From Ancylobacter sp. WKF20 (GTDB taxonomy: Bacteria > Pseudomonadota > Alphaproteobacteria > Rhizobiales > Xanthobacteraceae), in NCBI RefSeq assembly GCF_029760895.1, contig NZ_CP121679.1:930001-994000 (forward strand): a DNA stretch of 64,000 nt. The letters are read 5' to 3'. Numbering within the stretch: position 1 is the first letter of the stretch; each line of letters begins with the position of its first letter. This document shows, piece after piece, positions 23,427-39,565 of this stretch. Both the position numbers and the translations under genes were made by a program. The notes beneath the pieces are model-generated. The model ran no database searches. It saw nothing but the letters and a program-made list of their open reading frames with translations, and was not told where the DNA came from.

Positions 23427-23466
23427 GGGTCCTCCCGACCGGCTGCGTGGGCCTAACCGTTGCTTT

Positions 23467-23514
23467 TTGTAATCGGTTGCACCTAGCGTAACGGAAGTTT
23501 GTAATCGATTGCAA
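23467..23514. promoter_or_regulatory. Tandem LacI-family operators
   Basis: TTGTAATCGGTTGCA (23467-23481) and TTGTAATCGATTGCAA (23499-23514) are near-identical pseudo-palindromes centred on CG, the usual layout of LacI/GalR operators. Their start points are 32 bases apart, about three helical turns, so two repressor dimers could bind on one face. They lie between the isomerase gene and the divergent lacI-type gene and should control both directions, including autoregulation. Confidence 0.8.
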
Positions 23515-23568
23515 GCGCCCCTCGCTCCCGATTGCCGCCGCACCGTCGCGCGGGGTATGGAGGGCTTA

Positions 23569-24623: not shown

Positions 24624-25919
24624 CTAGGCCGTCTCCACCGTGACCGGCAGGCGAGTCAGCACGGCTTCCGCCGCGCGGGTGACGCCGGGATCGGCCTTCA
24701 TCCGGGCGGAGATCGCCTTCAGCCGCGCCCGCAGCGCGTGATCCTCCAGCAGCTCCGTGATGGTCGCGCGCAGCCCGTCCGGCGACCAGTCGGAGCGGTG
24801 CATGGCGCGGCCGACGCCGGTGTCCTGCGTGCGGCGGGCATTGTCATGGCCGTCCCAGCAATAGGGCATGACCAGCGAGGGCACGCCGTGAAACAGCGCC
24901 TCGCAGAACGAGTTGTTGCCACCATGGTGGATGAACAGCGCGGATTGCGCGACCACCGAGGGCTGGGGAAACCAGCTTCCCAGGAACACATTGTCCGGCA
25001 CCCGGCGATAGGCATCCATGAAGCCGCCGACATTCACATAGAAGCGGGCGCGCAAGCTTGCGAACACCTCGATCATCCGGCCGATCTGCTCGGTGTCGAT
25101 CGCCCCGAGGCTGCCGAAGCTCATATAGACCAGCGGCCCCTCATTCACCGGCAAAGGCGGGGGATCGAACGGCACTTCCTCGCGCACGCAGCCTTCCAGG
25201 AAGACGAACAACTCCCCCGGCAGCGCCTGCGCGCGCTCATAGCGTACGGCGGAGGGCGCGAGCAGCAGGTTCAGCCAGTCGGAATTCTCCAGAAATTGTC
25301 CGGCCGGCAGCGGGCGCAGGCCGCGGGCGCGGCGAAACGCGTTGTAGCGGTTATGGGCGGGCTTGAGAATCGCGGCCGCCGCCTTCTCCCACGCCGCGCG
25401 GCCCGCCGCATCCTCCGGCGACAGGCCGGAGAGATAGGGCGGCACAAGCGGGTCGGGGATCTCCGTCTCGGCGCAGGAGACGACGCGCGCCCAGGGTTTC
25501 CCCGACCGCAGGATCGCCGGGAACATGATGACATTGTCGAGCAGGATCGCGTCCGGCTGGATCTGGCCGAGCAGCGCCTCCAGCGAGTCCTCGACCGCGA
25601 TCACCGTATCGACGATCGCCTCCCAGGTCGGGGCGACATAGGCCTCGAGCTGGTTGAGCGGCGACAGGTCAAAATGGGCGAGGTGGGTGTTGACGAAATT
25701 CTGCCAGTAGGTCTCCCCGCGCCCCTGCGCCGCCGCCGGTTCCGGCTGCAGGTGATATTCGCGAAAGCCATATTCGGCGAACACGCCGGTGAAGCCGGGA
25801 TGGCAGAGAAACACCGGCTCCGCCCCGCGCGCCGCCAGCTCGCGGGCGATGCCGACGCAGTTGAGCGCGGCGCCGAAGCTCGCTTCGGGAAACAGGGCGA
25901 TGACGGGTGGGCGGGTCAC
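24624..25919 (-). CDS. UGT/MurG-like glycosyltransferase, paralogue of the gene at 30945
   Basis: 431 residues from a GTG start that overlaps the regulator stop as GTGA. It is a GT-B fold glycosyltransferase of the UGT/macrolide type. The N-domain begins IALFPEASFGAALNCVGIA. The C-domain has VYMSFGSLGAID, SWFPQPSVVAQ and IHHGGNNSFCEALFHGVP, then PYCWDGHDNARR, which together match the nucleotide-sugar-binding signature. No signal peptide is present, so it is cytoplasmic. Its close paralogue lies 5 kb away across the transporter genes. I infer that both transfer a sugar from a UDP-sugar to a small molecule. It is co-transcribed with the GntR gene, which precedes it. Confidence 0.82.
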   Translation of the reverse strand: MTRPPVIALFPEASFGAALNCVGIARELAARGAEPVFLCHPGFTGVFAEYGFREYHLQPEPAAAQGRGETYWQNFVNTHLAHFDLSPLNQLEAYVAPTWEAIVDTVIAVEDSLEALLGQIQPDAILLDNVIMFPAILRSGKPWARVVSCAETEIPDPLVPPYLSGLSPEDAAGRAAWEKAAAAILKPAHNRYNAFRRARGLRPLPAGQFLENSDWLNLLLAPSAVRYERAQALPGELFVFLEGCVREEVPFDPPPLPVNEGPLVYMSFGSLGAIDTEQIGRMIEVFASLRARFYVNVGGFMDAYRRVPDNVFLGSWFPQPSVVAQSALFIHHGGNNSFCEALFHGVPSLVMPYCWDGHDNARRTQDTGVGRAMHRSDWSPDGLRATITELLEDHALRARLKAISARMKADPGVTRAAEAVLTRLPVTVETA

Positions 25920-26878
25920 GAGGCCGTTCCTTTGATGCGTGCGCCGGCCTGTTGCGGGCCTCTCAGCAGCGGGGACATGCCGCGCCCGGCGGCTTCCGGT
26001 CGGCGAATCCCCGAGCGACGCAAATGCAGCACCATCTGGTCGGCGGCAAGCTCAAGCTGGTTGCGCTCCAGGCTGTCGAGAATGTCGAGATGTTCCTCCA
26101 TCGCCTGGCGCTGGCGGAAGGGCGGGGCGGCGGCTTCCTTCTGCGCCATGCGCCGCAGCCGGTGATGCGCCAGCAGCGTGCCCTGCACGAAGCGGTTGGC
26201 CGAGCCTTCCGCGATCATCACATGGAAGTCGATATCGAGGCGCTGGAAGCCGGCGGCGGTGAGCCGGCTGTCCGGCAGGTCCTGAAAGGCGCGCATCTGC
26301 GCCCTGAGCGCGCTGGCGCGGGTGGGGTCGAGCGTGAAGCCCGACGTGAGGATCGCCTGCGGCTCCAGCGTGAGGCGGAAGGCGAAGCTTTCGGCGATGG
26401 CGCGGGGCGTGTCGAGCAGGGGCTGGAACGCCCAGGCGCTGCCGGGAAGCTGGGTGACTATACCGTCACGTGCCAGTACTTTTAGCGCATTCAGTACCTC
26501 AACGCGCGACACGGAATACCGCCGGGCGAGGGCGCTGACGGATTGCACGTCGGCGATGCGGCGGGCGGAGCGGTCGGCGAGGATGCGGGTGAACAGGCCC
26601 TGTTCGAGATCCTCGACCCCGACCTTCGCCTCGCTCAGTCCATCCTGAGCGCCCTGGGAGAGGAAATAGCCCGCCTCTTCCTTCCAGATTAGAATATTAT
26701 TCTTTTCCAGTATCTTGAAGGCGGATCTTATCGGCGTACGCGAGACGCCGCAGGCGTCGGCAATCGCCTGCTCGGGCATGTGCTCGCCGGCCTTCATGCC
26801 GCGATCAAGCGCCAGCGTGATGATCTGCTGGGCGAGCGACACATGGTTGTGGCGGGCGGCGCGGCGGCGTCCGGCCAT
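25916..26878 (-). CDS. GntR-family regulator with an extra winged-helix segment and FCD-like domain
   Basis: 320 residues. Residues about 10-75 are the GntR winged helix (AGEHMPEQAIADACGVSRTP, then AFKILEKNNIL). Residues about 85-150 look like a second winged helix: ALARRYSVSRVEVLNALKVL followed by a wing. The rest is helical and resembles an FCD ligand-binding domain, with DIDFHVMIAEGSANRFV as its Asp/His-containing core. Typical FadR/FCD regulators are about 230 residues with one winged helix, so the extra segment is notable. It is divergent from the binding-protein gene at 27044 and is the likely regulator of the whole 24.6-39.6 kb locus; the ligand is probably the imported amine or an intermediate. 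Confidence 0.85.
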   Translation of the reverse strand: MAGRRRAARHNHVSLAQQIITLALDRGMKAGEHMPEQAIADACGVSRTPIRSAFKILEKNNILIWKEEAGYFLSQGAQDGLSEAKVGVEDLEQGLFTRILADRSARRIADVQSVSALARRYSVSRVEVLNALKVLARDGIVTQLPGSAWAFQPLLDTPRAIAESFAFRLTLEPQAILTSGFTLDPTRASALRAQMRAFQDLPDSRLTAAGFQRLDIDFHVMIAEGSANRFVQGTLLAHHRLRRMAQKEAAAPPFRQRQAMEEHLDILDSLERNQLELAADQMVLHLRRSGIRRPEAAGRGMSPLLRGPQQAGARIKGTAS

Positions 26879-26931
26879 GGCATCCTCCCGGCGGCACCCC
26901 GGAGTCGGGGGACGTTCGCCAAAGAACCAAG

Positions 26932-26949
26932 AATACAGTTTGACGTATT
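26932..26949. promoter_or_regulatory. Putative GntR operator overlapping a -35 box
   Basis: AATAC (26932-26936), eight bases, GTATT (26945-26949) is an inverted repeat in the divergent spacer. TTGACG (26940-26945) inside it resembles a plus-strand -35, with TACTCT (26964-26969) as a weak -10. Binding here would repress the transporter operon and could affect gntR itself. Confidence 0.4.
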
Positions 26950-27043
26950 TTTCCGCTTATTCGTACTCTCCCAATCAGCGGTCATCAAGAACCGCTTTCC
27001 TTCCGAGAACCACCGAATTGGTGGGGGACAACAGGAGTTTGCC

Positions 27044-28090
27044 ATGGTGGGGATTTCCTGCCGTGCGGTGGCCATTGCCGGCATGGCTCTGGGCCTCACC
27101 GCCTTTGCCGCGAGCGCGGATCCGCTCGTGATCTCGAACTGGGACGGCTATCTCGCCCCCGACGCGATCAAGCAGTTCAACGAGGCCACCGGCAACAGCG
27201 CCGAGCTGGTGCTGCACGCCACCAATGAAGAGATCATGGGCAAGCTCATTGCCGCCAAGGGCAAGGGCTATGACGTGGTCTTCGTCTCCTCGCCCTTCGC
27301 CGAGGTGCTGCACAATCTCGGCCTCGCCGAGGAGCTGGATCATTCCAAGCTGCCGAACCTGAAGAACCTCTACCCGGAGGCGACGACCCTCGCCCATGAC
27401 AAGGGCAACACCTTCTCCGTGCCCTATACCTGGGGCACGACGGGGCTGTGCTACCGCTCGGACCTGACCCCCGCGCCGACCTCCTGGAACGACCTCCTGA
27501 AGCCGACTGACGCTCTCAAGGGCAAGACCACCATGCTGGCGACCGATCGCTGGCTGCTGGCGGCGGGCTTCCTGTCGGAGGGTTATTCGGTCAACGAGAC
27601 CGACAAGGCCAAGCTGCAGCAGACCCGCGACCTGCTGATCGCCGCCAAGAAGACCCTGCTCGCCTATGACGATACGACCTTCTACTCGAAGCTGGTGTCG
27701 GGCGAGGCGCAGCTCGTGCAGGCCTGGGACGGCTGGTGCAATTACGGCATCACCGAGAACCCGCAGATCAAGTACGTGATCCCCAAGGAGGGCTCCGACC
27801 TCTGGGTGGACACGATGGTGATCCTCAAGGCGTCCGAGCATAAGGATGCGGCTTACGCCTTCATCAACTCCATGCTGGACGGTAAGACCCATCGCTGGGC
27901 GGCCGAGAACATCCTCTACAAGGTGCCGAACAAGGCGGCGATGGAGGGTCTCGACCCGGCGCTGCTGCAGAAGTACCCGAACATGACGATGACCTCGGCC
28001 GAGTTGCTCAAGCATGAGCAGCTGCGCGATGTCGGCGCGGCGCAGCGCGATTATTCGCGCACCGTGTCCGAGATCATGGCCGCGAACTGA
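27044..28090 (+). CDS. Polyamine-type ABC transporter substrate-binding protein (PotD/PotF family)
   Basis: 348 residues from the ATG at 27044, with AGGAG seven bases upstream and a signal peptide cleaved near AASADP. The longer frame runs through the promoter. Family features are LVISNWDGYLAPDAIKQFNE at the mature N-terminus, VPYTWGTTGLCYRSD, and TMVILKASEHKDAAYAFIN near the C-terminus. The bound ligand in this family is usually putrescine, spermidine or another amine or amino acid. It is the first gene of the rightward operon; a stable hairpin follows it, so it is probably made in excess over the membrane components. Confidence 0.88.
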   Translation: MVGISCRAVAIAGMALGLTAFAASADPLVISNWDGYLAPDAIKQFNEATGNSAELVLHATNEEIMGKLIAAKGKGYDVVFVSSPFAEVLHNLGLAEELDHSKLPNLKNLYPEATTLAHDKGNTFSVPYTWGTTGLCYRSDLTPAPTSWNDLLKPTDALKGKTTMLATDRWLLAAGFLSEGYSVNETDKAKLQQTRDLLIAAKKTLLAYDDTTFYSKLVSGEAQLVQAWDGWCNYGITENPQIKYVIPKEGSDLWVDTMVILKASEHKDAAYAFINSMLDGKTHRWAAENILYKVPNKAAMEGLDPALLQKYPNMTMTSAELLKHEQLRDVGAAQRDYSRTVSEIMAAN

Positions 28091-28107
28091 CCCGACCGAC
28101 GGATCGC

Positions 28108-28134
28108 GCCGCTCCCGCCACAAGCGGGGGCGGC
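28108..28134 (+). terminator. Intra-operon hairpin between binding-protein and permease genes
   Basis: GCCGCTCCCGC (28108-28118), loop CACAA, GCGGGGGCGGC (28124-28134): an 11-bp stem with one G-U wobble, followed by CTTCC. It is probably an attenuator or an mRNA-stabilising hairpin that sets the stoichiometry of binding protein to permease, since the downstream genes are on the same strand. Confidence 0.55.
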
Positions 28135-28179
28135 CTTCCACCGCGCCGTTACCGGCGTGCCTGACGGTGCCTGAACCCG

Positions 28180-29046
28180 ATGCAAGACCGTAAATCCCTC
28201 GTGCTGGTCGCGCCGGCCTTTGCGTGGCTCACCGCCTTCATGGTGGTGCCGTGCCTGCTGATCCTCGCGCTCGCCTTCTTCCGGCGCGGCATCTATGGCG
28301 GCATCGACTATACCTTCACGCTCGAGAATGTGGCGATGGTGTTCGATCCGCTCTATGCGCGGATCTTCCTGAAATCGGCCTGGATCGCCGGGCTCGCGGC
28401 GTCGATCGCGGCCGTGGTCGGCTACGCCGCCGCCTATGCCATCGCCGCCATGCCCCGCCGCCACCAGCCGGCGCTGCTGTTCTTCGCCATCCTGCCCTTC
28501 TGGTCGAACTACCTCGTGCGCACCTATGCCTGGATCGTGCTGCTGAACCGGGAGGGGCTGATCGTCGCCATTGCCCGCTGGCTCGGCGTCGAGGGCGCGC
28601 TGCCGCAAATGCTGTACACCGAAGGCGCCGTGGTGCTCGGCCTCGTCTACAATTACCTGCCCTTCGTCATCCTCGCCGCCTATGCCCCGCTCTCCCGCCT
28701 CAACCCGGAGATCGCGGAAGCCTCGCGCGACCTCGGCGCCGGCGGCTGGACGACATTCCGCCGGGTGATCCTGCCGATCACCTTGCCGGGCGTGGCGACC
28801 GGCTTCGTCTTCGTCTTCGTGCTCTCCATCGGCAATTTCGTCACCCCGGCGCTGCTGGGGGGCGGGCAGTTCCAGATGATCGGCAACCTCGTCTACGCCC
28901 AGTTCCTCACCGCCAATGACTGGCCCTTCGGCTCGGCGCTCTCCATGGTGCTGATCGCGGTCATGCTGGTCCTGCTGACGGCGCAGACCTACGCCAATGA
29001 GCGGGCCTCCACCGGCCGCCAGGCGAGCGGAGGCGTCGATGGCTGA
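28180..29046 (+). CDS. Polyamine-type ABC transporter permease (PotB-like)
   Basis: 288 residues, six predicted hydrophobic helices. The N-terminus (VLVAPAFAWLTAFMVVPCLL) is typical of PotB. The coupling loop EASRDLGAGGWTTFRRVILP is the EAA motif that contacts the ATPase. The gene overlaps the next permease by eight bases. It forms the heterodimeric inner-membrane channel with that protein. Confidence 0.9.
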   Translation: MQDRKSLVLVAPAFAWLTAFMVVPCLLILALAFFRRGIYGGIDYTFTLENVAMVFDPLYARIFLKSAWIAGLAASIAAVVGYAAAYAIAAMPRRHQPALLFFAILPFWSNYLVRTYAWIVLLNREGLIVAIARWLGVEGALPQMLYTEGAVVLGLVYNYLPFVILAAYAPLSRLNPEIAEASRDLGAGGWTTFRRVILPITLPGVATGFVFVFVLSIGNFVTPALLGGGQFQMIGNLVYAQFLTANDWPFGSALSMVLIAVMLVLLTAQTYANERASTGRQASGGVDG

Positions 29047-29830
29047 CCGTCACACCCTGCGGCTGATGCTGCTCATCCTCGGCGTCGTCTTCGCCTTCCT
29101 CTACATCCCGATCTCGGTGCTGGTCGGCCTGTCCTTCAATGCGGGCGGGATGCCGACTGCCTGGACCGGCTTCTCGCTGAAATGGTACGGCGCGCTGTTC
29201 GCCAACAAGGACATATTGCGCGCCGCCGGCAACACGCTGATCGTCGGGCTGGTCTCGGCCTTCGTCGCGACCGTGCTCGGCACGCTGCTCGCCATCGGCA
29301 TCGAGATCCGCCGCCGCAAGGGGCGCGTTCTGGAGACGCTGATCTTCGCGCCGATGGTGATCCCCGACATCGTGCTCGCCATCGCGCTGCTCAGCTTCTT
29401 CTCGCTGCTCGATGTGCGGCTTGGGCTGCACACCGTCATCATGGCGCATGTCGTGTTCAACCTCGCCTTTGTCTGCGCGGTGGTGCGGGCGCGGCTGAAA
29501 TCCTTCGACTGGTCGATCGTGGAAGCCTCGGCCGATCTCGGCGCCTCGACGGTGACGACGCTGCGCCGCGTGGTGCTGCCGGTGCTGGCGCCGGCCATCA
29601 TCGCGGGTGGGCTGCTCGCCTTCACCCTCTCGGTCGATGAGTTCATCATCGCCTTCTTCACCGCCGGGGCCCAGCGCGCCTCGATCACCCTGCCGATGCA
29701 GATCTACGCCATGATCCGCTTCGGCGTGACCCCGGAAATCAATGTGCTCGCGACGCTGGTGATCGGCTTCTCGCTGGTCACGCTGGCCCTGTCGCAGCGG
29801 CTCAATCGCGGAGGCCTGCCCGGCCAATGA
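29039..29830 (+). CDS. Polyamine-type ABC transporter permease (PotC-like)
   Basis: 263 residues from the ATG at 29039, preceded by GGAGG; a longer frame back to 28997 is unlikely. Six hydrophobic helices are seen, with the EAA loop EASADLGASTVTTLRRVVLP and the LSVDEFIIAFFTAG segment characteristic of PotC. It overlaps the preceding permease by eight bases and the ATPase by four (ATGA). Confidence 0.9.
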   Translation: MADRHTLRLMLLILGVVFAFLYIPISVLVGLSFNAGGMPTAWTGFSLKWYGALFANKDILRAAGNTLIVGLVSAFVATVLGTLLAIGIEIRRRKGRVLETLIFAPMVIPDIVLAIALLSFFSLLDVRLGLHTVIMAHVVFNLAFVCAVVRARLKSFDWSIVEASADLGASTVTTLRRVVLPVLAPAIIAGGLLAFTLSVDEFIIAFFTAGAQRASITLPMQIYAMIRFGVTPEINVLATLVIGFSLVTLALSQRLNRGGLPGQ

Positions 29831-30882
29831 CGACCCTGCTTTCCCTGCGCAACGTCGAGAAACGCTACGGCTCCGTCCGGGCGGTCAATGGCGTGTCGCT
29901 CGATATCCGCCAGAACGAGTTCTTCGCCCTGCTCGGCGCCTCCGGTAGCGGCAAGACCACGCTGCTGCGCATGCTCGCCGGTTTCGAGACGCTGAGCGGC
30001 GGGCAGATCCTGCTGAACGGCCAGGACATCTCCAACGTGCCGCCGAACCACCGGCCGGTGAACCTGATGTTCCAGTCCTATGCGCTGTTCCCGCATATGA
30101 CGGTGGCGCAGAACATCGCCTATGGGCTGGAGATGGAGAAGCTGCCGCGCGCCGAGATCCGTCAGCGCGTGGACGAGATCCTCGCCACGATCCAGCTCTC
30201 GGCGCTGGCGAGCCGCAAGCCCGAGCAGCTTTCCGGCGGCCAGCGCCAGCGCGTCGCGCTCGCCCGGGCGCTGGTGAAGCGCCCGCAGCTCCTGCTGCTC
30301 GACGAACCGCTCGGGGCGCTCGACAAGAAGCTGCGCGGTGAAATGCAGCTGGAGCTGAAGCGCATCCAGCACCAGTTCGGCATCACCTTCATCATCGTCA
30401 CCCACGATCAGGAGGAGGCGCTGGTGATGGCCGACCGCATCGCCATCCTCCAGCATGGCGAGCTGCTGCAATGCGCGCCGCCGCGCGAGGTCTATGAACA
30501 CCCGGCCAACCGCTTCGCTGCCGAGTTCATCGGGGTGATGAACGTCATTCCCGTCACCCGCGACGGGGCCAAGCTCACCGCGGCGGAGGGCAGCCTCATC
30601 CGCGCCGACATTCCCGACGGGCTGGGGGGAGATCTCGTCGCCGCCGTGCGGCCCGAGCGGCTGCGGCTCGACGCCCATGCCTGCGAGAACAGGCTCTCCG
30701 GCCGCATCCTCGCCACCGCCTATCACGGCCTCGACCTGCAGGTGCATGTCGAGACCCCGGCGAGCCCCCGGCCGCTGATCTGCCGCGTGACGGCGGATGC
30801 GGCGGAGGCGCGCAACTTCCGCACCGGCGACGTGCTCAGCCTCGGCTGGAGCCGGGCCGACACCCGCATCTTCGCCGCCTGA
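29827..30882 (+). CDS. Polyamine-type ABC transporter ATPase (PotA-like)
   Basis: 351 residues. Walker A is GASGSGKTT (about residues 38-46), then Q-loop MFQSYALFPHM, signature LSGGQRQR, Walker B LLLLDEPLGALD and H-loop IVTHDQEEA. After about residue 235 it has the TOBE-type C-terminal domain of PotA/MalK ATPases (VAAVRPERLRLD). It powers the PotB/PotC-like permeases. Its start overlaps the PotC-like stop. A 62-base gap with its own Shine-Dalgarno sequence separates it from the glycosyltransferase, but transcription probably continues. Confidence 0.92.
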   Translation: MTTLLSLRNVEKRYGSVRAVNGVSLDIRQNEFFALLGASGSGKTTLLRMLAGFETLSGGQILLNGQDISNVPPNHRPVNLMFQSYALFPHMTVAQNIAYGLEMEKLPRAEIRQRVDEILATIQLSALASRKPEQLSGGQRQRVALARALVKRPQLLLLDEPLGALDKKLRGEMQLELKRIQHQFGITFIIVTHDQEEALVMADRIAILQHGELLQCAPPREVYEHPANRFAAEFIGVMNVIPVTRDGAKLTAAEGSLIRADIPDGLGGDLVAAVRPERLRLDAHACENRLSGRILATAYHGLDLQVHVETPASPRPLICRVTADAAEARNFRTGDVLSLGWSRADTRIFAA

Positions 30883-30944
30883 CGCTGATCCCGCGAACGA
30901 CACCACCGGCGCCCGCCAAGAGGCGCTTCCAGAGAGGTTAAACG

Positions 30945-32219
30945 ATGGAACAGAAGACCTTCGCCTTCTTCCCCGAAGCGGCCTTCGGTCCGGCCCTCAA
31001 CTCCGTCGGCATCGCCCAGGCGGTCACCGCGCTCGGCCACAAGGCGGTGTTCCTGTCCGATCCCGGCTTCGTCTCGGTCTATGAGGGCTATGGCTTCGAG
31101 GCGCACCCGGTCGCGCTGTCCGAGCCGATGCCGCCCGAGCAGATGGCGAAGTTCTGGGAGGACTTCATCAACGGTCACATCCCGAACTTCTCGAAGAAGC
31201 CGATCGACCAGCTCGACAACTATGTCCGGGAATGCTGGGAGGCGATCGTCTCCAGCGCCACATGGGCGCAGAAGGATCTGCCGGGCGTGCTCGCGCGCAT
31301 CAAGCCGGATGTGATCGCGGTCGATAACGTCATCCTGTTCCCGGCCATCAAGCAGTTCGGCGTGCCGTGGGTGCGCATCATCTCCTGCTCGGAGAACGAG
31401 ATCGAGGATGAGGCGATTCCGCCGCATCTCTCGGGGCTCGGCGAGAACGACCATGAGGGCCACGCCGCCTTCCGGGCGAAGTTCAACGCCGTCATCAAGC
31501 CGATCCATGACGCGTTCAACGCCTTCCTCGCCGAGAATGGCGAAGCGGCCTATCCGCTCGGCCAGTTCTTCGAGGCTTCGCCCTATCTGAACCTGCTGCT
31601 CTATCCCGAGCAGGCCAAGTACAAGCGCGCGGTGCCGCTCGACCCGGCGCGCTTCCAGTATCTGGAAGGCTGCGTGCGCAAGGACGAGCCCTACACCGTG
31701 CCGACCTTCGCCAAGAACAATGACGGCCCGCTGCTCTACATCTCCTTCGGCTCGCTCGGCTCGGGCGACACCGAGCTGCTGAAGCGCCTCATCGCGCTGG
31801 TCGGCAAGACCCGTTACCGCGCGCTGGTCAATGTCGGCGATTATCTCGCGAGCTACACGGACGTGCCGGAGAATGTGGCGCTTGCGAGCTGGTTCCCGCA
31901 GCCCTCGGTGATCCCGCAGGTCGATGCCGTCATCCATCACGGCGGCAACAACTCGTTCACCGAGTGCCTCTATTTCGGCAAGCCAGCGATCATCATGCCC
32001 TATGTCTGGGACGGCCATGACAACGCCATGCGCGTCGAGGAAACCGGCCATGGCTTCCGTTCCGAGCGCTATGACTGGACCGACGAGGAGCTGATCGCCA
32101 AGATCGAGGCCTGCCTCACCGATCCGGCGATCAAGGCCAAGCTCGCCGCCACCTCCGCCCATATGCAGAGCTGCGAGGGCCCGAAGAAGGCCGCGCGCCT
32201 GCTCGCCGCTCTGGTGTGA
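30945..32219 (+). CDS. UGT/MurG-like glycosyltransferase, paralogue of the gene at 24624
   Basis: 424 residues from an ATG behind GAGAGG. It aligns along its whole length with the leftward glycosyltransferase: FFPEAAFGPALNSVGIAQ at the N-terminus, LLYISFGSLGSGDTELLK at the start of the C-domain, then SWFPQPSVIPQ, IHHGGNNSFTECLYFGKP and PYVWDGHDNAMRVEETG. It is a cytoplasmic GT-B enzyme. The operon also encodes a sugar-1-kinase and a uridylyltransferase, so a UDP-sugar donor is likely. Its position right after an amine importer suggests that the acceptor is the imported compound; this is inference. The paralogues may act as a pair or on different acceptors. Confidence 0.83.
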   Translation: MEQKTFAFFPEAAFGPALNSVGIAQAVTALGHKAVFLSDPGFVSVYEGYGFEAHPVALSEPMPPEQMAKFWEDFINGHIPNFSKKPIDQLDNYVRECWEAIVSSATWAQKDLPGVLARIKPDVIAVDNVILFPAIKQFGVPWVRIISCSENEIEDEAIPPHLSGLGENDHEGHAAFRAKFNAVIKPIHDAFNAFLAENGEAAYPLGQFFEASPYLNLLLYPEQAKYKRAVPLDPARFQYLEGCVRKDEPYTVPTFAKNNDGPLLYISFGSLGSGDTELLKRLIALVGKTRYRALVNVGDYLASYTDVPENVALASWFPQPSVIPQVDAVIHHGGNNSFTECLYFGKPAIIMPYVWDGHDNAMRVEETGHGFRSERYDWTDEELIAKIEACLTDPAIKAKLAATSAHMQSCEGPKKAARLLAALV

Positions 32220-32224
32220 CCGCC

Positions 32225-32584
32225 ATGACCAATTTGAAAAGCTCCGCGCCGCACATCCATGGCGCCACGACCTATGACGACCTGGTGGACTGGGGCGCGC
32301 AGCCCGATTCCATCGAGGGCGCCTCGCACTCCACCGGCCGCCTGCTCTTCAAGGGGCCGGGCAACTCGCCGGAGACCGGCATCTGGGTCTGCACCCCCGG
32401 ACGCTGGAAAATCTCCGTGCCGCGCGACGAGTTCTGCCACTTCGTCGCGGGCCGCGCCCGCTACACCGCCGTCACCGGCGAGGTCACCGAGGTGGAGGCC
32501 GGCACCTGCGTCGTCTTCCCCGGCGGCTATGAGGGCGAGGCCGAGGTGATCGAGACCATCCGCAACATCTACATGCTGGCTTGA
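32225..32584 (+). CDS. Small cupin protein 1 (EutQ/DUF861-like)
   Basis: 119 residues from the ATG at 32225; a GTG at 32216 that overlaps the glycosyltransferase stop (GTGA) is also possible. A single beta-barrel domain with PETGIWVCTPGRWKISVPRD, then DEFCHFVAGRARYTAV and GTCVVFPGGYEGEAEV. The D-E-x-C-H-x-x-x-G-R motif is shared with the cupins at 32594 and 39197. Cupin_3 proteins of this size occur in amine and ethanolamine operons; their reaction is mostly unknown. It may act on a glycosylated intermediate, but nothing shows this. Confidence 0.8.
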   Translation: MTNLKSSAPHIHGATTYDDLVDWGAQPDSIEGASHSTGRLLFKGPGNSPETGIWVCTPGRWKISVPRDEFCHFVAGRARYTAVTGEVTEVEAGTCVVFPGGYEGEAEVIETIRNIYMLA

Positions 32585-32593
32585 GTGACACAA

Positions 32594-32941
32594 ATGACCG
32601 CGACCCCCCTGATGAAGAAGCCGCTTTCCGTCACCGATGTCGTGGATTGGGGCATCATCCCGACCATGATCGAGGGCCAGTCCCACGTCTCCGGCCAGGT
32701 GATCCACAAGGGCCCGAACGGCCAGTCCGAATGCGGCCTGTGGATCTGCACACCGGGCAAGTGGGAGTGCCACGTCACCTCCGACGAGTTCTGCCACTTC
32801 CTCGAAGGGCGCTGCACCTATGTGCATGAGAGCGGCGAGGTGATCGAGATCACCCCGGACACCGCCGCCTTCTTCCCGAAGGACTGGAAGGGCGTCTGCA
32901 CGGTCCATGAGACCATCAAGAAGGTCTACATGATCCGATGA
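32594..32941 (+). CDS. Small cupin protein 2 (EutQ/DUF861-like)
   Basis: 115 residues from the ATG at 32594 (GTG 32585 is the alternative). It is a tandem paralogue of the preceding gene: VVDWGIIP near the N-terminus, GLWICTPGKWECHVTSDEFC, and HFLEGRCTYVHESG. It starts nine bases after the first cupin stop and overlaps the kinase start by four bases (ATGA). Two adjacent, similar cupins could form a heteromer. Confidence 0.8.
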   Translation: MTATPLMKKPLSVTDVVDWGIIPTMIEGQSHVSGQVIHKGPNGQSECGLWICTPGKWECHVTSDEFCHFLEGRCTYVHESGEVIEITPDTAAFFPKDWKGVCTVHETIKKVYMIR

Positions 32942-34005
32942 GCGTGGCCGTCCCCCTCAGCATGGAGACCGGTCCGGCCGTGCGGCTGGATCCCCCCGGC
33001 GTGACCTTTCTGGCGCGCCACGGGCAGGCCGGCGTGCCGCTCATGGCGCTGCCGGGCGATGCCTCGGCGCGCCGCTACTACCGGCTGCCGGCGGCGGGCC
33101 TTCTGCTGATGGAGGACCGCACCGACCCGGAGGGTTTTGCCTCCTATATCCGCGTCGCGCGGCATCTGAACGGGCTCGGCCTGTCGGCGCCGCGCGTCGA
33201 GGCGGCGGACCCTGTCCATTGCCTCGCGCTGATCGAGGATTGGGGCGACGCCACCTATGCGCGCCGCCTTAAGGCCGGTCGCTCGGAAGAGGAACTCTAC
33301 GCCCTCGCCATCGACGCACTGGCGCATCTGCATCAATCGCCCGAGGGGGCGGCGGTCTCGCAGCCCTTTTATGATCGCGATGTCTGGCTCACCGAACTCA
33401 CCGTGTTCTGCGACTGGTTCGCCCCGGCGCTGGCGCCGGAGCTGGACCGCGCCGCCTTCACCGCGCGGTTCCTTGAGCTCTGGGACGCGGCGCTCGCCCC
33501 GCTCTATGGCCGGCAGGAGGCGCTGGTGCTGCGCGATTTCCATGTCGACAACCTGATGGAACTCGACGGGCGCGACGGCGTCGCCCGCTGCGGCCTGCTC
33601 GACTTTCAGGACGCCGTGCGCGGCCCGCGCGAATATGACCTCGTCTCGCTGCTGCAGGATGCCCGGCGCGACCTCGCCCCCGGTCTCGAAGAGGCGATGC
33701 TGGACCGCTACATCGGCGCGCTGGCGGGCGATGAGGCCGAGGCGCGGGCGATCCGCGCGCGCTATCATTTGATGGGCGCGCAGCGCCATGCCCGCATCGC
33801 GGGCGTCTTCGTGCGGCTCTGTCAGCGCGACGGCAAGGCGCATTACCTCACCTGGCTGACGCGTGTGCTCGGTCAGCTGGAAGTGGCGCTTGAAGCAGCC
33901 AACCTCACATCCATCGCCGACTTCCTTGCCGAGGTGCTGCCCGACTGGCGCGCGCGCGGCGAGGCACTGGCGTCCCGGCTGGCCGCTACCCGCGCGCCGG
34001 CATGA
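32938..34005 (+). CDS. AmgK-like anomeric sugar kinase (aminoglycoside phosphotransferase fold)
   Basis: 355 residues. The N-lobe has PGDASARRYYRLPAAG and LLMEDRTDPEGF, and the C-lobe has the catalytic loop VLRDFHVDNLME and the metal-binding GLLDFQDAVRGPREYDLVSL. These blocks match AmgK, which phosphorylates MurNAc or GlcNAc at C1. In cell-wall recycling amgK sits beside murU; here it sits among catabolic genes, with a GlmU-type transferase 3 kb away. I infer it makes a sugar-1-phosphate for UDP-sugar synthesis. Overlaps at both ends (ATGA) show tight coupling with cupin 2 and the aldehyde dehydrogenase. A different small-molecule kinase activity cannot be excluded. Confidence 0.8.
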   Translation: MSVAVPLSMETGPAVRLDPPGVTFLARHGQAGVPLMALPGDASARRYYRLPAAGLLLMEDRTDPEGFASYIRVARHLNGLGLSAPRVEAADPVHCLALIEDWGDATYARRLKAGRSEEELYALAIDALAHLHQSPEGAAVSQPFYDRDVWLTELTVFCDWFAPALAPELDRAAFTARFLELWDAALAPLYGRQEALVLRDFHVDNLMELDGRDGVARCGLLDFQDAVRGPREYDLVSLLQDARRDLAPGLEEAMLDRYIGALAGDEAEARAIRARYHLMGAQRHARIAGVFVRLCQRDGKAHYLTWLTRVLGQLEVALEAANLTSIADFLAEVLPDWRARGEALASRLAATRAPA

Positions 34006-35546
34006 AGGAACTTCGCATGCCCGATTTCACTCCCGCCGATCTCGCCGCCCCGCGCTATTATCTGAGCCCCGGCCTGCACCCCTCCATGGGTGTCACCCAT
34101 GCGGTGATCGACCCGGCGACGCTGGAGGAGGTCGGCCGCCGTGTCGAGGTGACCAGCGAGGAGATCGCGGCGGTTCTGGCGCGCGTCAACGCGGCGCAGA
34201 AGCTGTGGAACCGCACCGACGCCAAGAGCCGCGCCAAGGCGCTGCACGCGCTCGCCAATCGCATCGAGGCGGCTGATTTCACCGACTGCGCCATTCTGAT
34301 GAGCCGGGAGATGGGCAAGCCCTATCCCGAGGCCATCGGCGAACTCGCCAATGTCGCGCCGATCTTCCGCTATTACGCCGAGATGGCGCGCGACGATGCC
34401 GGCAAGATCGCCGGCACGACGCAGATCGGCTCGACGCAATATGCGCGCTACGAGGCGCTGGGCGTCTCCGTCCACATCATGCCGTTCAACTTCCCGATCC
34501 TGCTGATGTGCTGGACGGTCGCGGCCTCGCTCGCCGCCGGCAATGGCTGCATCGTCAAGCCGGCCGAGGCGACGACGCTGTGCACGCTGGAATTCATGAA
34601 GGTGTTTGACGGTCTGCCGGAAGGCCTCGTCGCCTGCCTGCCGGGCGGGGCGGAGGTCGGCAAGGCGCTGGTGGACAGCGACCGCACCCATGCCGTCGCC
34701 TTCACCGGCTCGGTGGCGGGCGGGCGCGCGGTCGCCATGGCGGCGGCGGCGCGGATGAAACCGGCGGTGATCGAGGCCGGCGGTTCCGACCCGATGATCA
34801 TTGCCGCTTCGGCCCCCATCGATGTGGCGGCGGCGGGCGCGGTCACCGGTGCCTTCCACATGTCCGGGCAGGTCTGCACCTCGACCGAGCGGATCTATGC
34901 CGTCGATGCCATCCACGATGCCTTTATCGAAGCCTTCGTGCGCGAGACCAAGCGCCTGCGCATCGGCAACGGGCTGGAGAAGAACGAACTCGGCCCGCTG
35001 GTCTCCAAGGCCGCGCGGGACAAGGTGATGCGCCTCGTCGCCGACGCGGTCGCCAAGGGCGCGACGGTCGCATGCGGCGGGCGTATCCCGGAGGGGCTGG
35101 AGACCGGCTGGTTCTACGAGCCGACCATCCTCACCGGTTGCACGCCCGAGATGGAGATCCTGCACGAGGAGACCTTCGGCCCCGTCGTCGCGGTCTGCCG
35201 CGTGGCGGATTTCGACGCGGCGATCACCGCCGCCAATGACAGCCCGTTCGGTTTGGGCGCCTCGATCTTCACCACGTCGCTGGAAGAAGCCATCGAGGCG
35301 TCCGAGCGGCTGGAGGCCGGGATGGTCTGGGTGAACAACCCGATGATCGACAATGACGCGCTGCCCTTCGGCGGCTGGAAAGCGTCCGGCATGGGCCGCG
35401 AACTGGGCCGGCAGGGGCTCGACGCGTTCCGCCGCTCCAAGATGGTCGTCATGGACCACAAGCCGCAGATTCATGACTGGTGGTACCCGTACCCGGACGA
35501 ATGGTTCCTCGACCGGTCCGGGGTCGGCGGCCGCAAACACGTCTGA
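34002..35546 (+). CDS. Aldehyde dehydrogenase (NAD(P)-dependent, ALDH superfamily) 1
   Basis: 514 residues; ATG 34002 overlaps the kinase stop, and ATG 34017 is possible. The NAD-binding region has MPFNFPILLMCWTVAASLAA and AFTGSVAGGRAVA. The catalytic Glu is in VIEAGGSDPMI and the catalytic Cys in MSGQVCTSTERIY. EETFGPVVAV and PFGGWKASGMGRELG complete the fold. The C-terminus has an unusual Trp/Tyr-rich tail (DWWYPYPDEWF). It oxidises an aldehyde to a carboxylate; next to an FAD amine oxidase the aldehyde is probably produced by oxidative deamination or from an amino alcohol. Confidence 0.9.
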   Translation: MKELRMPDFTPADLAAPRYYLSPGLHPSMGVTHAVIDPATLEEVGRRVEVTSEEIAAVLARVNAAQKLWNRTDAKSRAKALHALANRIEAADFTDCAILMSREMGKPYPEAIGELANVAPIFRYYAEMARDDAGKIAGTTQIGSTQYARYEALGVSVHIMPFNFPILLMCWTVAASLAAGNGCIVKPAEATTLCTLEFMKVFDGLPEGLVACLPGGAEVGKALVDSDRTHAVAFTGSVAGGRAVAMAAAARMKPAVIEAGGSDPMIIAASAPIDVAAAGAVTGAFHMSGQVCTSTERIYAVDAIHDAFIEAFVRETKRLRIGNGLEKNELGPLVSKAARDKVMRLVADAVAKGATVACGGRIPEGLETGWFYEPTILTGCTPEMEILHEETFGPVVAVCRVADFDAAITAANDSPFGLGASIFTTSLEEAIEASERLEAGMVWVNNPMIDNDALPFGGWKASGMGRELGRQGLDAFRRSKMVVMDHKPQIHDWWYPYPDEWFLDRSGVGGRKHV

Positions 35547-35575
35547 AACGAGCAGGTCTGAAGAGGGCGAGCCCG

Positions 35576-37063
35576 ATGCACACAACGCGCCTTTACATTG
35601 ACGGTGCCTTCGCCGCTCCTGTGGCCGGCGGCAGCTTCCCGGCCATCGACCCGGCGACCGAACAGCCCTTCGCGCATGTCGCCGCCGGGCAGGCCGAGGA
35701 TATCGACCGCGCCGTGCGCGCCGCGCGCCGGGCCTTTGACACCGGCGTGTGGTCGGGCCTCTCCGGCGCCGAGCGCGGGGCTTATCTGCGCAAGGTCGCG
35801 CAGGGGCTGCGGGATCGCCTCGTCGAGATCGCCGCTATCGAGGTGCACGACAATGGCAAGCCGCTGCCGGAAGCCGAATGGGATGTGGGCGATGCCGCCT
35901 TCACCTTCGACTATTACGCCGGCCTTGCCGAGGCCGAGGACAGCCGCGCGGATGAGGAGATCGATGTCGGCGACGCCCGCTTCCGCGCCAGCATCACCCG
36001 CGAGCCGCTGGGGGTGGTCGGCGCCATCACGCCGTGGAACTACCCGCTGCTGATGGCGGTGTGGAAGGTGGCGCCGGCGCTCGCGGCCGGTTGCACCCTC
36101 ATTCTCAAACCGTCCGAACTTTGCTCGCTCTCCTGCGAGAAGCTGGCCGAGATCATCCATGAGGCCGGCATTCCGGCGGGCGTGTTCAACCTCGTCACCG
36201 GCACCGGCCCGGAGGCCGGCCAGCCGCTCGCCGACCACGAGCTCTGTGACAAGCTCGCCTTCACCGGCTCGGTCGCCACCGGGCGCAAGGTGATGATGGC
36301 GGCGGCGGCCGGCATCCGCACCGTGGCGCTGGAGCTTGGCGGCAAGTCGCCCTTCCTCATCTTTGCCGATTGCGATGTCGAGAAGGCGGTCGAGTGGATC
36401 CTGTTCGGCATCTTCTGGAACAAGGGCGAGGTCTGCTCGGCGACATCCCGCGTGCTGGTCGAGCGCAGCGTCTATCCCCGCCTGCTGGCGCGGCTGAAGG
36501 AGGCAGCGGAGGCCATCACCATCGGGCCGGGCAGCGAGCCGGGCGTGAAGCTCGGGCCCATCGTCTCCAAGGGCCAGTACGACAAGATCCTCGCCGCCAT
36601 CGCCAGCGGCAAGGCCTCGGGCGCGCGGCTGGTCTCCGGCGGCGAGCGGCCGGAGGGGCTGGCTCAGGGCTATTTCCTCCGGCCCACCATCTTTGCCGAC
36701 GTGCCTGTTGATGCCGGCATCTGGCGCGAGGAAATCTTCGGCCCGGTGGTCTGCGTGAACCCGTTCGATACGGAGGAGGAGGCGCTCATTCTTGCCAATG
36801 ACAGCGCCTATGGCCTCGCCGCCGCCGTCATGTCGGATGATCTCGCGCGCTGCGAGCGCGTCGCCCGCAAGCTGCGCGCCGGCATCGTCTGGGTGAACTG
36901 CTCGCAGCCGACCTTCACCCAGCTTCCCTGGGGCGGCTTCAAGACCTCGGGCATCGGCCGCGAGCTCGGCCGCGCCGGCTATGATGCCTATTTCGAAACC
37001 AAGCAGATCACCCGCTTCGACCCCGCCGAAAGCTGGGGCTGGTATTTGCCGGGGCCGGCATGA
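35576..37063 (+). CDS. Aldehyde dehydrogenase 2, ALDH10/betaine-aminoaldehyde type
   Basis: 495 residues from the ATG at 35576, preceded by AGAGGGCGAG; the longer frame overlaps the first dehydrogenase. It has TPWNYPLLMAVWKVAPALAA, AFTGSVATGRK, catalytic Glu in VALELGGKSP and catalytic Cys in NKGEVCSATSR. The CSATSR context and the C-terminal WVNCSQPTFTQLPWGG then SGIGRELG match ALDH10, the omega-aminoaldehyde and betaine-aldehyde dehydrogenases. This supports an amine or amino-alcohol substrate for the operon. It overlaps the uridylyltransferase gene by four bases (ATGA). Confidence 0.9.
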   Translation: MHTTRLYIDGAFAAPVAGGSFPAIDPATEQPFAHVAAGQAEDIDRAVRAARRAFDTGVWSGLSGAERGAYLRKVAQGLRDRLVEIAAIEVHDNGKPLPEAEWDVGDAAFTFDYYAGLAEAEDSRADEEIDVGDARFRASITREPLGVVGAITPWNYPLLMAVWKVAPALAAGCTLILKPSELCSLSCEKLAEIIHEAGIPAGVFNLVTGTGPEAGQPLADHELCDKLAFTGSVATGRKVMMAAAAGIRTVALELGGKSPFLIFADCDVEKAVEWILFGIFWNKGEVCSATSRVLVERSVYPRLLARLKEAAEAITIGPGSEPGVKLGPIVSKGQYDKILAAIASGKASGARLVSGGERPEGLAQGYFLRPTIFADVPVDAGIWREEIFGPVVCVNPFDTEEEALILANDSAYGLAAAVMSDDLARCERVARKLRAGIVWVNCSQPTFTQLPWGGFKTSGIGRELGRAGYDAYFETKQITRFDPAESWGWYLPGPA

Positions 37064-37812
37064 GCGCGACACCGCCCATCGCCGCCCACAGAATCGCGGC
37101 CATCGTGCTCGCCGCCGGCAAGGGCAGCCGCATGGGTTCGCCCTTGCACAAGGTGCTGCATCCGCTGAAAGGCCGGCCGATGCTGGCCCATCTGCTCGAC
37201 AGCCTCGCGCAGATCGCGGCTGAGAAGGTCGTGCTGGTGGTCGGTGCCGGGCGCGAGCAGATCGAGGAAGCCTTTCCCGCTCTGCCCAAGGCCGTGCAGC
37301 ATGAGCAGCTTGGCACCGCCGATGCGGTGCGCGCGGCGGAGGGCGAGCTGGCCGGCTTCGATGGCACGGTGCTGATCCTCTATGGCGACGTGCCGCTGAT
37401 CACCCCCGCCACCATGCGCGCGCTCTGCGCGGCGGTGAGCGATGACGTGGCGCTCGCCGTGCTCGGCTTCCTCCCTGCGGATACCCGCGCCTATGGGCGG
37501 CTGGTGACGGCGGACGATGGCAGCCTCCTGCGCATCGTCGAGCACAGCGACGCGAGCGCGGCGGAGCGGGCCATCGGCTTCTGCAATTCCGGTGTCATGG
37601 CGGTGCTGTGCAACCGTCTCTTTCCCTGGCTCGCCCGCGTCGGCTGCGCCAACGCCAAGGGCGAGTACTACCTCACCGACATCGTCGCGCTCGCCCGCGC
37701 CGACGGCTACCGCGTCGCCACCGTCGAGGCGGGCGAGCTGGAAGTCACCGGCGTCAACTCGCGCGAGGAGCTGGCGGCGCTGGAAGAAAAGCTGGCGGAG
37801 GCCGCCGCGTGA
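37060..37812 (+). CDS. Stand-alone GlmU-type uridylyltransferase (NTP transferase)
   Basis: 250 residues. It carries the GlmU N-terminal pyrophosphorylase features: IVLAAGKGSRMGS, HKVLHPLKGRPM, EQLGTADAV, LILYGDVPLI, and later NAKGEYYLTDIV. The C-terminal left-handed beta-helix acetyltransferase domain of housekeeping GlmU (about 450 residues) is absent, so this is not the essential bifunctional enzyme. It should convert a hexosamine- or hexose-1-phosphate plus UTP to a UDP-sugar. With the AmgK-like kinase it would make the donor for the glycosyltransferases in the locus; this link is inference. Its stop and the next start share one base (TGATG). Confidence 0.87.
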   Translation: MSATPPIAAHRIAAIVLAAGKGSRMGSPLHKVLHPLKGRPMLAHLLDSLAQIAAEKVVLVVGAGREQIEEAFPALPKAVQHEQLGTADAVRAAEGELAGFDGTVLILYGDVPLITPATMRALCAAVSDDVALAVLGFLPADTRAYGRLVTADDGSLLRIVEHSDASAAERAIGFCNSGVMAVLCNRLFPWLARVGCANAKGEYYLTDIVALARADGYRVATVEAGELEVTGVNSREELAALEEKLAEAAA

Positions 37813-39200
37813 TGGATCTGCTGCCCACTCTCAAGAACGCGGCGCTGCGCCCCTACTGGTTCGACACCGTGCCGGACGTGCCGGCGCGGCCGGCGCTCGC
37901 CAGCGACACACGGGCGGACCTCGCCATCATTGGCGGCGGCTTCACCGGACTGTGGACCGCGCTGAAGGCGCGCGAGCGCCACCCGCAGGCGCGCATCGTG
38001 CTGGTGGAAGCGGGCCGCACCGGCAACGCCGCCTCCGGCCGAAATGGCGGCTTCTGCGCGCCGTCCATCTCGCATGGCCTCGGTAATGCGCTGCGCCGCT
38101 GGCCGCGCGAGGTGGAAACGTTGATCCGCCTCGGCCGGGCGAATCTCGACGCCTATGCCGACGATGTTACCCGCTACGGCCTCGATATCGAGTTCGAGCG
38201 GCCGGGCAAGCTGATGCTGGCCGAGACGCCCTGGCAGATCGAGGGGCTGGAGGCACTCGCCGCCAATCACCGCCGCTTCGGCATTGAAAGCCACCCGCTC
38301 ACCGGGGCGGCGCTGGCGGAAAAGCTCGACAGCCCGGTCTATGGCGCCGGCCTGTTCGAGCCGAACTATGCGCAGGTGAACCCGGCCAAGACCGTGGCGG
38401 AGCTGCGCCGCGTGGCCCTTTCGCTCGGTATCGAGCTGTATGAGGACACGCTGGTGACAGCGCTGAGCGAAAGCGCGACCGGCATCGAGCTGGTGACGCC
38501 GGGCGGCGTGATACAGGCGGGCAGGGCGGTGCTCGCCACCAATGCCGCCCCGCCGCTGCTGCGCCGACTGCGCCCGAGCGTCATCCCGATCTTCGACTAC
38601 GCGATCATGACGCGCCCGCTGACCGAGGACGAACTCGCCGCCATCGGCTGGACCGGGCGGCACTCGCTCGCCGACAGCGGCAACCAGTTCCACTACATCC
38701 GCAAGAGCGCCGATAACCGTATCCTCTGGGGCGGCTATGACGCGATCTATCATTTCGGTTCGCGGCGCGATGCGGCGCTGCTCGACCGGGCCGAGACCTA
38801 CAACAAGCTCGCCACCCATTTCGCCCGCGCGCTGCCGCAGCTCGCCCATGTGCCGTTCACCCATGCCTGGGGCGGCATCATCGACACGTCCGCACGCACC
38901 ACCTTCTTCGCCGGCCTCGCCGCTGGCGGAAAGCTCGCTTACGCCATGGGCTTCACCGGGCAGGGCGTCTCCGCCAGCCGTTTCGCCGCGCTGACCATGC
39001 TCGACCTCTTGGACGGTGTGGAGACGGAGCGCACCCGCCTCGCCATGTCGCGCACGCGCCCCTTTCCCTTCCCGCCGGAGCCGCTGCGCTGGCTCGGCGT
39101 GCGGCTCGCCCAGATCGGGCTGGCGCAGGAGGACAAGGACGGGCGCCGCTCGCGCTTCAACCGCCTGCTCGACGCCATGGGCGTCGGTTTTGATTCATGA
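37812..39200 (+). CDS. FAD-dependent amine oxidoreductase (DAO family, PuuB-like)
   Basis: 462 residues from the ATG at 37812. The FAD-binding Rossmann motif is LAIIGGGFTGLWTALKARE, followed by SGRNGGFCAPS, which in this subfamily lines the flavin. The end of the FAD domain is AWGGIIDTSART and GFTGQGVSASRFA. Length and layout match PuuB (gamma-glutamylputrescine oxidase) and relatives that oxidise a secondary or blocked amine. In the Puu pathway the substrate is blocked by glutamate; no PuuA-type ligase is present here. I infer that a glycosyl group plays that part, which is speculative. It overlaps the following cupin gene by four bases. Confidence 0.88.
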   Translation: MDLLPTLKNAALRPYWFDTVPDVPARPALASDTRADLAIIGGGFTGLWTALKARERHPQARIVLVEAGRTGNAASGRNGGFCAPSISHGLGNALRRWPREVETLIRLGRANLDAYADDVTRYGLDIEFERPGKLMLAETPWQIEGLEALAANHRRFGIESHPLTGAALAEKLDSPVYGAGLFEPNYAQVNPAKTVAELRRVALSLGIELYEDTLVTALSESATGIELVTPGGVIQAGRAVLATNAAPPLLRRLRPSVIPIFDYAIMTRPLTEDELAAIGWTGRHSLADSGNQFHYIRKSADNRILWGGYDAIYHFGSRRDAALLDRAETYNKLATHFARALPQLAHVPFTHAWGGIIDTSARTTFFAGLAAGGKLAYAMGFTGQGVSASRFAALTMLDLLDGVETERTRLAMSRTRPFPFPPEPLRWLGVRLAQIGLAQEDKDGRRSRFNRLLDAMGVGFDS

Positions 39201-39565
39201 GGGCCTTCAGCATGTCACCCCGCCACGTCATCGCCTTCGACGCCGACGCCATTCCCGCCCGCGACATCGTCACCGACGATCCGGCCGTGGTGGACGTGCC
39301 CTTCGTGGCGCAGAGCCGGCGGCACTTCACGCAGGTTGAAAAAGGCGCCTTTTCCGGCATCTGGGAAGCGCCGCCGCACCGCGAGCGGGTCGATTGCGAC
39401 TATGACGAGATGTGCCATCTGCTGGAGGGCCGCGTCCGCCTCACCGACGCTGACGGACAGGCCCGCGAATTCGGCCCCGGCGAGAGCTTCGTCGTCGCGC
39501 GCGGCTTCAAGGGCACCTGGGAGAACCTGACCCATGTGCGCAAGGTGTTCTTCATCCTGAGCTGA
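39197..39565 (+). CDS. Small cupin protein 3 (EutQ/DUF861-like)
   Basis: 122 residues from ATG 39197, overlapping the oxidase stop as ATGA (ATG 39212 is an alternative). Features are IWEAPPHRERVDCDYDEMCH, then LLEGRVRLTDADG, GESFVVARGFKGTWEN and a KVFFILS end. It shares the D-E-x-C-H-x-x-x-G-R motif with the other two cupins of the operon but is more diverged. It is the last gene of the locus; about 140 bases of non-coding DNA follow before the autotransporter frame. Confidence 0.8.
   Translation: MRAFSMSPRHVIAFDADAIPARDIVTDDPAVVDVPFVAQSRRHFTQVEKGAFSGIWEAPPHRERVDCDYDEMCHLLEGRVRLTDADGQAREFGPGESFVVARGFKGTWENLTHVRKVFFILS

Follow-up and report, generated by a model that had tools for sequence, protein, structure and literature searches.

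A locus in the genome of Ancylobacter sp. WKF20 encodes what is, by sequence comparison, a conserved core unit of a PotDBCA-type importer, a glycosyltransferase (GT1), cupins and an aldehyde dehydrogenase (ALDH1). A sugar kinase, in a fixed position, and a stand-alone GlmU-type uridylyltransferase (GlmU-N) are accessory to this unit. The locus occupies positions 24624-39565 of the window, that is, the whole stretch of 64,000 nucleotides that was analysed (930001-994000 of the closed 4.63-Mb genome). Taken together, the genes may form a GntR-controlled island for the catabolism of one small cationic amine that is tagged with a sugar, the tag being recycled via the kinase and GlmU-N; this assignment is tentative and is given somewhat less than an even chance of being correct. 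The order of the genes is kept across loci, and the arrangement is therefore not due to chance.

Conservation of the locus around GT1

The locus consists of a left unit on the minus strand, GntR-GT2, where GT2 is a second glycosyltransferase, and a right unit on the plus strand with the order PotD-PotB-PotC-PotA-GT1-cupin1-cupin2-kinase-ALDH1-ALDH2-GlmU-N-DAO-cupin3, where DAO is a flavin adenine dinucleotide (FAD) oxidoreductase. Scans against Pfam and NCBIfam recovered all genes that an earlier note on this DNA had named at 24624-39565: the regulator, the importer, two paralogous UGT-type glycosyltransferases, the kinase, the uridylyltransferase, an FAD oxidase, two aldehyde dehydrogenases and three cupins. 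The tight overlap described in that note was also borne out. Given the chosen starts (35570 for ALDH2 and 37809 for DAO, both later than those of the longest open reading frames [ORFs], which begin at 35480 and 37608, respectively), 9 of the 14 gene junctions overlap, eight of them by 4 bp and PotB/PotC by 50 bp. Within the right unit, no intergenic gap exceeds 89 bp.

A scan of species genomes with GT1 as the query identified 341 stretches that encode relatives, and the best 80 (L009-L088), which are closely related, were fetched, yielding 81 loci with the window. Because GT1 was the query, its own presence in every locus is no result; the counts show the companions of GT1, not the frequency of the importer without GT1, and a gene scored as absent is absent from the fetched stretch. 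Loci with at least 6.6 kb upstream (n = 71) or at least 8.6 kb downstream (n = 68) were considered complete on that side. Each of GT2, GntR, PotD and PotA occurs in 70 of the 71 upstream-complete loci, the exception being a Halieaceae metagenome-assembled genome (MAG; L053), where GT1 is accompanied by DAO, an MFS_2 transporter and further genes. In the downstream-complete loci, cupin2 (68/68), ALDH1 (67/68) and cupin1 (63/68) accompany GT1, and DAO is found in 45/68, counting relatives of ∼29% identity. The accessory genes are the kinase (28/68), ALDH2 (16/68), cupin3 (15/68) and GlmU-N (11/68). In all 36 kinase-bearing loci, the nearest recognised neighbours of the kinase are cupin2 and an aldehyde dehydrogenase gene (ALDH1 in 35; the other is closer to the archaeal one). 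The earlier note had set down beforehand that its proposal would be refuted if the sugar genes were not conserved alongside the importer; among these loci, all found through GT1, GT2 stays with PotD and PotA, and the kinase, where present, keeps its place.

Farther loci, outside the 80, include GT2 in 12/24, PotD in 17/24, cupin2 or an archaeal cupin in 19/22 and ALDH1 or an archaeal aldehyde dehydrogenase in 16/22. Three distant loci from another class of the same phylum (L130-L132) combine the core with the kinase and have neither GlmU-N nor DAO within the stretch; three more from that class (L133, L140 and L141) show PotDBCA-GT1-cupins-ALDH1-DAO, with GT2 not in the stretch. In seven loci (L134-L139 and L142), GT1 adjoins a cupin in otherwise different surroundings. 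For example, L139 contains a flavoprotein with Oxidored_FMN and Pyr_redox_2 domains, which we take to be trimethylamine-dehydrogenase-like, plus GCV_T; L134 contains a formate-tetrahydrofolate ligase and an Amino_oxidase; and in L142, an alpha-amylase-family gene (2599-4335, minus strand) adjoins the distant GT1.

Incomplete versions are found outside this phylum, in haloarchaea and Actinobacteria. Two haloarchaeal plasmids (L102 and L103) carry a glycosyltransferase (58-59% identity to GT1) followed by a cupin and an aldehyde dehydrogenase, and then an ROK kinase on the opposite strand and a GlmM/PGM-like phosphohexomutase, with a Pot importer, DAO flavoproteins and an aminotransferase nearby. 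Neither the ROK kinase, which scores highest with glucokinase models, nor the mutase, which scores highest with archaeal GlmM, reaches a cut-off. In a midpoint-rooted tree of 62 glycosyltransferases, the haloarchaeal sequences are nested in the bacterial GT1 group, the actinobacterial rows being taken as outside, which suggests that the haloarchaeal gene was acquired from bacteria by transfer. One Nonomuraea carries PotDBCA (47-50% identity), a glycosyltransferase (38%) and an aldehyde dehydrogenase, with a divergent glucosamine-kinase-like gene in front of them (NF041273, 234.6 bits against a cut-off of 550; no Pfam match at 1e-6), and one Streptomyces plasmid retains PotDBCA and the glycosyltransferase; no cupin lies beside the glycosyltransferase in either of these loci.

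GT1 shares 98% identity with a protein from Ancylobacter radicis. Under sparse sampling, with the window genome included each time, the locus was found in 2/119 genomes of the family, 11/289 of the class and 8/398 of the phylum, low frequencies that point to an accessory island with a patchy distribution. In Rhizobiaceae plasmids and a small number of further loci (L143, L105, L110, L111, L114, L115, L035, L037 and L017), the gene after ALDH1 is of the saccharopine-dehydrogenase family.

Glycosyltransferases, sugar-activation genes and importer

GT1 (30945..32219, plus strand) and GT2 (24624..25919, minus strand; Pfam EryCIII-like_C/UDPGT) are of the UGT/MGT type and share 45-47% identity. GT1 has the GT-B fold, the uridine diphosphate (UDP)-binding C-terminal motif of the UGT/GT1 type is present, and the donor-site residues of GT1 and GT2 are near-invariant, as are the D127-N128 pair and the motif PExxxG. 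The usual catalytic residue of UGT/GT1-type glycosyltransferases is a His in an N-terminal loop. At this position, GT1 of the window has Pro and GT2 has Ala; across the alignments, Pro occupies it in 106 of the 107 GT1 rows (the other has a gap) and in both archaeal rows, and Ala or Ser in all 83 GT2 rows. GT2 forms a single clade in the tree (support 100/100). On a Pseudomonas plasmid (L107, 12159-13001), a GT2-like stretch (46%) also spans two annotated short genes, close to those for type VI secretion.

The likeness of the kinase (32938..34005, plus strand; Pfam APH; PDB 3csv) to AmgK, as the earlier note had it, holds, without reaching the cut-off of the AmgK equivalog models (NF045698, 207.6 of 500 bits; NF045759, 119.7 of 550 bits). 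GlmU-N (37060..37812, plus strand; NF010933 GlmU, 272.9 of 505 bits) is a protein of 250 aa whose residues 12-243 align with the uridylyltransferase domain of GlmU structures; it stops after this N-terminal domain and lacks the C-terminal acetyltransferase domain. Its conserved blocks, with residues that are presumably substrate-binding, are kept in 12/12 rows. GlmU-N occurs in 11 of the 28 kinase-positive and none of the 40 kinase-negative downstream-complete loci (Fisher, 1.4e-5), and ALDH2 in 16/28 and 0/40, respectively (Fisher, 2.1e-8), with relatedness ignored in both tests.

Elsewhere in the genome, a MurU-like gene (273.1 of 370 bits) and AddB come after an AmgK relative (40%), and a GlmU is found within a 480-aa frame, so the kinase and GlmU-N of the locus would be a dedicated second module; misplaced peptidoglycan recycling was rejected as an explanation of the pair on account of the separate AmgK relative, MurU-like gene and AddB. 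Because the second enzyme is of the GlmU type, not the MurU type, the recycled sugar in the Ancylobacter genome is most likely N-acetylglucosamine (GlcNAc). The sugar-activation genes vary by lineage, from the kinase and GlmU-N of the window to the ROK kinase and mutase of haloarchaea and the glucosamine-kinase-like gene of Nonomuraea. A recycled sugar tag would require sugar-activation genes; their presence counts in its favour, and the finding of lineage-specific ones near the glycosyltransferase supports a recycled sugar.

The importer has the subunit composition of PotABCD, with the solute-binding protein PotD (27044..28090, 27044 being the most likely start; Pfam SBP_bac_8; PotD/PotF relatives in the PDB), the permeases PotB (28180..29046) and PotC (28997..29830; both Pfam BPD_transp_1) and the ATPase PotA (29827..30882), all on the plus strand; PotA exceeds the cut-off of its subfamily model (TIGR01187 potA, 387.4 bits against 355.6). 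The ligand pocket of PotD is modified. Two acidic ligand positions of E. coli PotD, presumably D168 and E171 (a pairing that could shift by one residue), align with Thr and Trp, with the other pocket positions kept, and two extra conserved Trp residues are found in the pocket at 258 and 319 (numbering of the 436-aa ORF). The pocket residues of WDGY, TDRW, WDGWC and W-DT are retained in at least 97% of the 92 rows (out of 108) kept at ≥45% identity; two actinobacterial rows have TERW. The replacement of the acidic ligands by Thr and Trp suggests that the ligand is probably neither spermidine nor putrescine.

The regulator (25916..26878, minus strand; Pfam GntR and FCD) is likely to act on an operator at 26932..26950 (minus strand), predicted from the conservation of its core, TACGTCAA. 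This core is present in 73 of the 83 GntR-PotD gaps, in which it is the commonest 8-mer, taken without a shuffled 8-mer control and from loci that share ancestry. In the window, the site is an exact inverted repeat, AATAC-N8-GTATT, that overlaps a plus-strand TTGAC box; exact ATACGTCAANNNGTAT is found in 17 of the 80 fetched loci, and the repeat is degenerate in most others. The predicted operator is the single site in the 4.63-Mb genome at ≤3 mismatches, and a wider GntR regulon was rejected on these grounds.

The remaining genes of the right unit, all on the plus strand, are oxidative enzymes and cupins. The DAO-family protein (37809..39200; Pfam DAO in the longer form) is described in the earlier note as PuuB-like; the family assignment stands, and no PuuB-named model is among its 10 NCBIfam matches, the best of which is TIGR03329 (236 of 632.8 bits), followed by L-pipecolate oxidase. 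ALDH2 (35570..37063) is nearest to the betaine-aldehyde dehydrogenase model (524.4 of 668.6 bits; PuuC model, 396 of 850 bits), and ALDH1 (34002..35546; Pfam Aldedh) is more distant. The specific NCBIfam models matched by the DAO and ALDH proteins are all below cut-off. Family scans assign cupin1 (32216..32584), cupin2 (32585..32941) and cupin3 (39197..39565) to the EutQ-like DUF861 (Cupin_3) family. A structural model of cupin2 (predicted local distance difference test score, 93.1) is nearest to 3bcw, and its nearest structures, EutQ and DUF861 proteins of unassigned function, gave no answer as to what the cupins do.

On either side, the locus is bordered by other genes. Directly 3′ of cupin3 lies a PATR-repeat autotransporter of 1996 aa (window 39709-45699, plus strand) that appears unrelated. 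On the left, window 19709-24621 holds a LacI regulator and, on the minus strand, the genes of a sugar operon (ABC ATPase, GFO/IDH/MocA oxidoreductase and xylose-isomerase-like TIM barrel). The LacI gene (23569-24621) was rejected as a member of the unit, as it belongs beside this separate operon; in the 80 loci, LacI was matched a single time, at 38%, on the far side of L018.

Proposed pathway and rival explanations

In the proposed pathway, PotDBCA would import the amine, and GT1, helped or reversed by GT2, would move a sugar from a UDP-sugar onto it. The flavoprotein at the locus, or an oxidase encoded elsewhere, could then convert the tagged amine to an aldehyde, which ALDH1 and ALDH2 would oxidise to the acid. 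The tag might be released spontaneously or with the assistance of a cupin. In the Ancylobacter genome, the AmgK-like kinase would turn the freed sugar into GlcNAc-1-phosphate, from which GlmU-N would make UDP-GlcNAc and so complete a carrier cycle. The part played by gamma-glutamate in the Puu pathway would here fall to the sugar, and the substrate is unlikely to be putrescine. In a more general form, a glycosyltransferase without the His would tag the amine, which would be oxidised in the tagged state and then freed, a C1 kinase and GlmU-N would re-activate the sugar on site, and haloarchaea would run the same cycle with the unrelated ROK kinase and mutase; this form is rated slightly less likely still. 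Synteny among near and far loci, the placement of the kinase, the restriction of GlmU-N to kinase-bearing loci, the near-invariant donor site and the single operator all count in favour of the sugar tag, and we infer that amine oxidation with on-site recycling of such a tag fits most pieces.

Several observations weigh against it. In 23 of the 68 downstream-complete loci, the stretch contains no DAO, and no one constant substitute emerged from the part of the flanking ORFs that was scanned; these ORFs had been selected with a simple codon score and probably include some that are not genes. The kinase is missing in 40/68; farther afield, the kinase is found in 3/22 loci and GlmU-N in 0/22, and the pairing of the two may partly reflect lineage because ALDH2 is equally tied to the kinase. 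The usual His is replaced by Pro, Ala or Ser in all 191 glycosyltransferase rows with letters there, the PotD pocket is unlike that of ordinary PotD, and the locus genes that were scanned with Pfam include no glycosidase. In 21 loci (20 Mesorhizobium and one Hyphomicrobiales MAG), GT2 has a glutamine-synthetase-family gene as its same-strand neighbour, so the sugar step is not a simple replacement for gamma-glutamylation. Finally, the substrate, the sugar donor and the order of steps are themselves inferred. The masking model of the earlier note is therefore plausible and partly supported: the conserved unit and the lineage-specific sugar-activation genes speak for it, and the patchy DAO and kinase, the glutamine-synthetase gene and the atypical pocket speak against it.

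Some of these observations would suit other explanations. The imported compound could itself be a sugar-amine conjugate (a glycosylamine or an amino-sugar derivative) from which the glycosyltransferase-fold proteins, running in reverse, pass the sugar to UDP, with the kinase and GlmU-N serving salvage and no masking involved. Such a role suits the pair, which could salvage free GlcNAc, as well as the lack of a glycosidase, and the extra Trp residues of PotD could stack on a sugar; the importer, however, is of the cationic PotABCD type, and conjugate import is considered unlikely. The haloarchaeal kinase and mutase equally suit simple sugar catabolism and so do not separate masking from conjugate import. 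Similarly improbable is a protective role, with the glycosyltransferases acting on some toxic by-product, such as an aldehyde hydrate or a hydroxylated amine, to conjugate it while the oxidation route runs untagged. The nearest solved relatives of GT1 are detoxifying enzymes, but GT1 is fixed inside the importer-cupin-ALDH operon, unlike an optional protection, and its branches in the 62-sequence tree are mostly shorter than those of GT2 from the same loci.

The loss of the His would also be explained if GT1 and GT2 were catalytically dead UDP-sugar binders acting as a sensor or scaffold. This is quite doubtful, given that the donor site, D127-N128 and PExxxG are near-invariant and that sugar-activation genes accompany the glycosyltransferases in some lineages. 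An ordinary polyamine-catabolism operon beside unrelated sugar genes is highly improbable: the PotDBCA, DAO and ALDH families are commonplace, but the order is kept across classes and PotDBCA-GT is still found in Nonomuraea and one Streptomyces, so that synteny already disfavours this explanation. If the recycled sugar tag is real, it would represent a new solution to amine masking, in bacteria and archaea, and would provide a role for conserved glycosyltransferases and DUF861 cupins that are now annotated by family alone. A literature search covering titles and the openings of abstracts found no description of such a pathway there.

Comparison with known systems

In the Puu pathway, a reactive amine is masked with glutamate before oxidation. 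The locus shares with this pathway a Pot-type importer, a DAO-family flavin oxidase and an aldehyde dehydrogenase, and the recyclable mask is the very logic proposed here; the locus differs in its glycosyltransferases, cupins, sugar-activation genes and altered PotD pocket. PuuA and PuuD, absent according to the earlier note, were not recovered: the PuuA model NF045547 has no match in the window (five elsewhere in the genome, none above cut-off), and no glutamine-amidotransferase family was detected in a scan of locus genes that did not extend to the remainder of the window. Where a glutamine-synthetase-family gene adjoins GT2, a DAO relative follows it in 21/21 loci; in L088, such a gene comes after ALDH1. 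Across 108 loci, a glutamine-synthetase-family gene is found in 26 (weak matches included), the kinase in 36 and both in none, a mutual exclusion that tracks taxonomy and may mean little. The window genome also has a second Pot importer adjoining a glutamine-synthetase-family gene (L154, 3873000-3892500).

AmgK-MurU recycling resembles the locus in that one operon encodes both a kinase of the AmgK family and a uridylyltransferase, a pair that would in both cases lead from a free sugar to a UDP-sugar. Here, the second enzyme is of the GlmU type, the kinase and GlmU-N genes are separated by two ALDH genes, and they are embedded with an importer and glycosyltransferases. The PotABCD spermidine/putrescine importer has the four-subunit architecture in common with the locus, whereas PotD of the locus, compared to that of E. 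coli, has Thr and Trp for the acidic ligands plus the extra conserved Trp residues.

Finally, the nearest solved relatives of GT1 are the spider-mite enzymes UGT203A2 and UGT202A2, which have the GT-B fold as well. Spider-mite UGTs are detoxifying and are thought to be of bacterial origin; the GT1 family could be close to their bacterial donor, and the proposed pathway, if true, would hint at the function of the bacterial relatives of these enzymes. The genomic role is different, UGT203A2 keeps the His where GT1 has Pro, and the DQ motif is DG in GT1.

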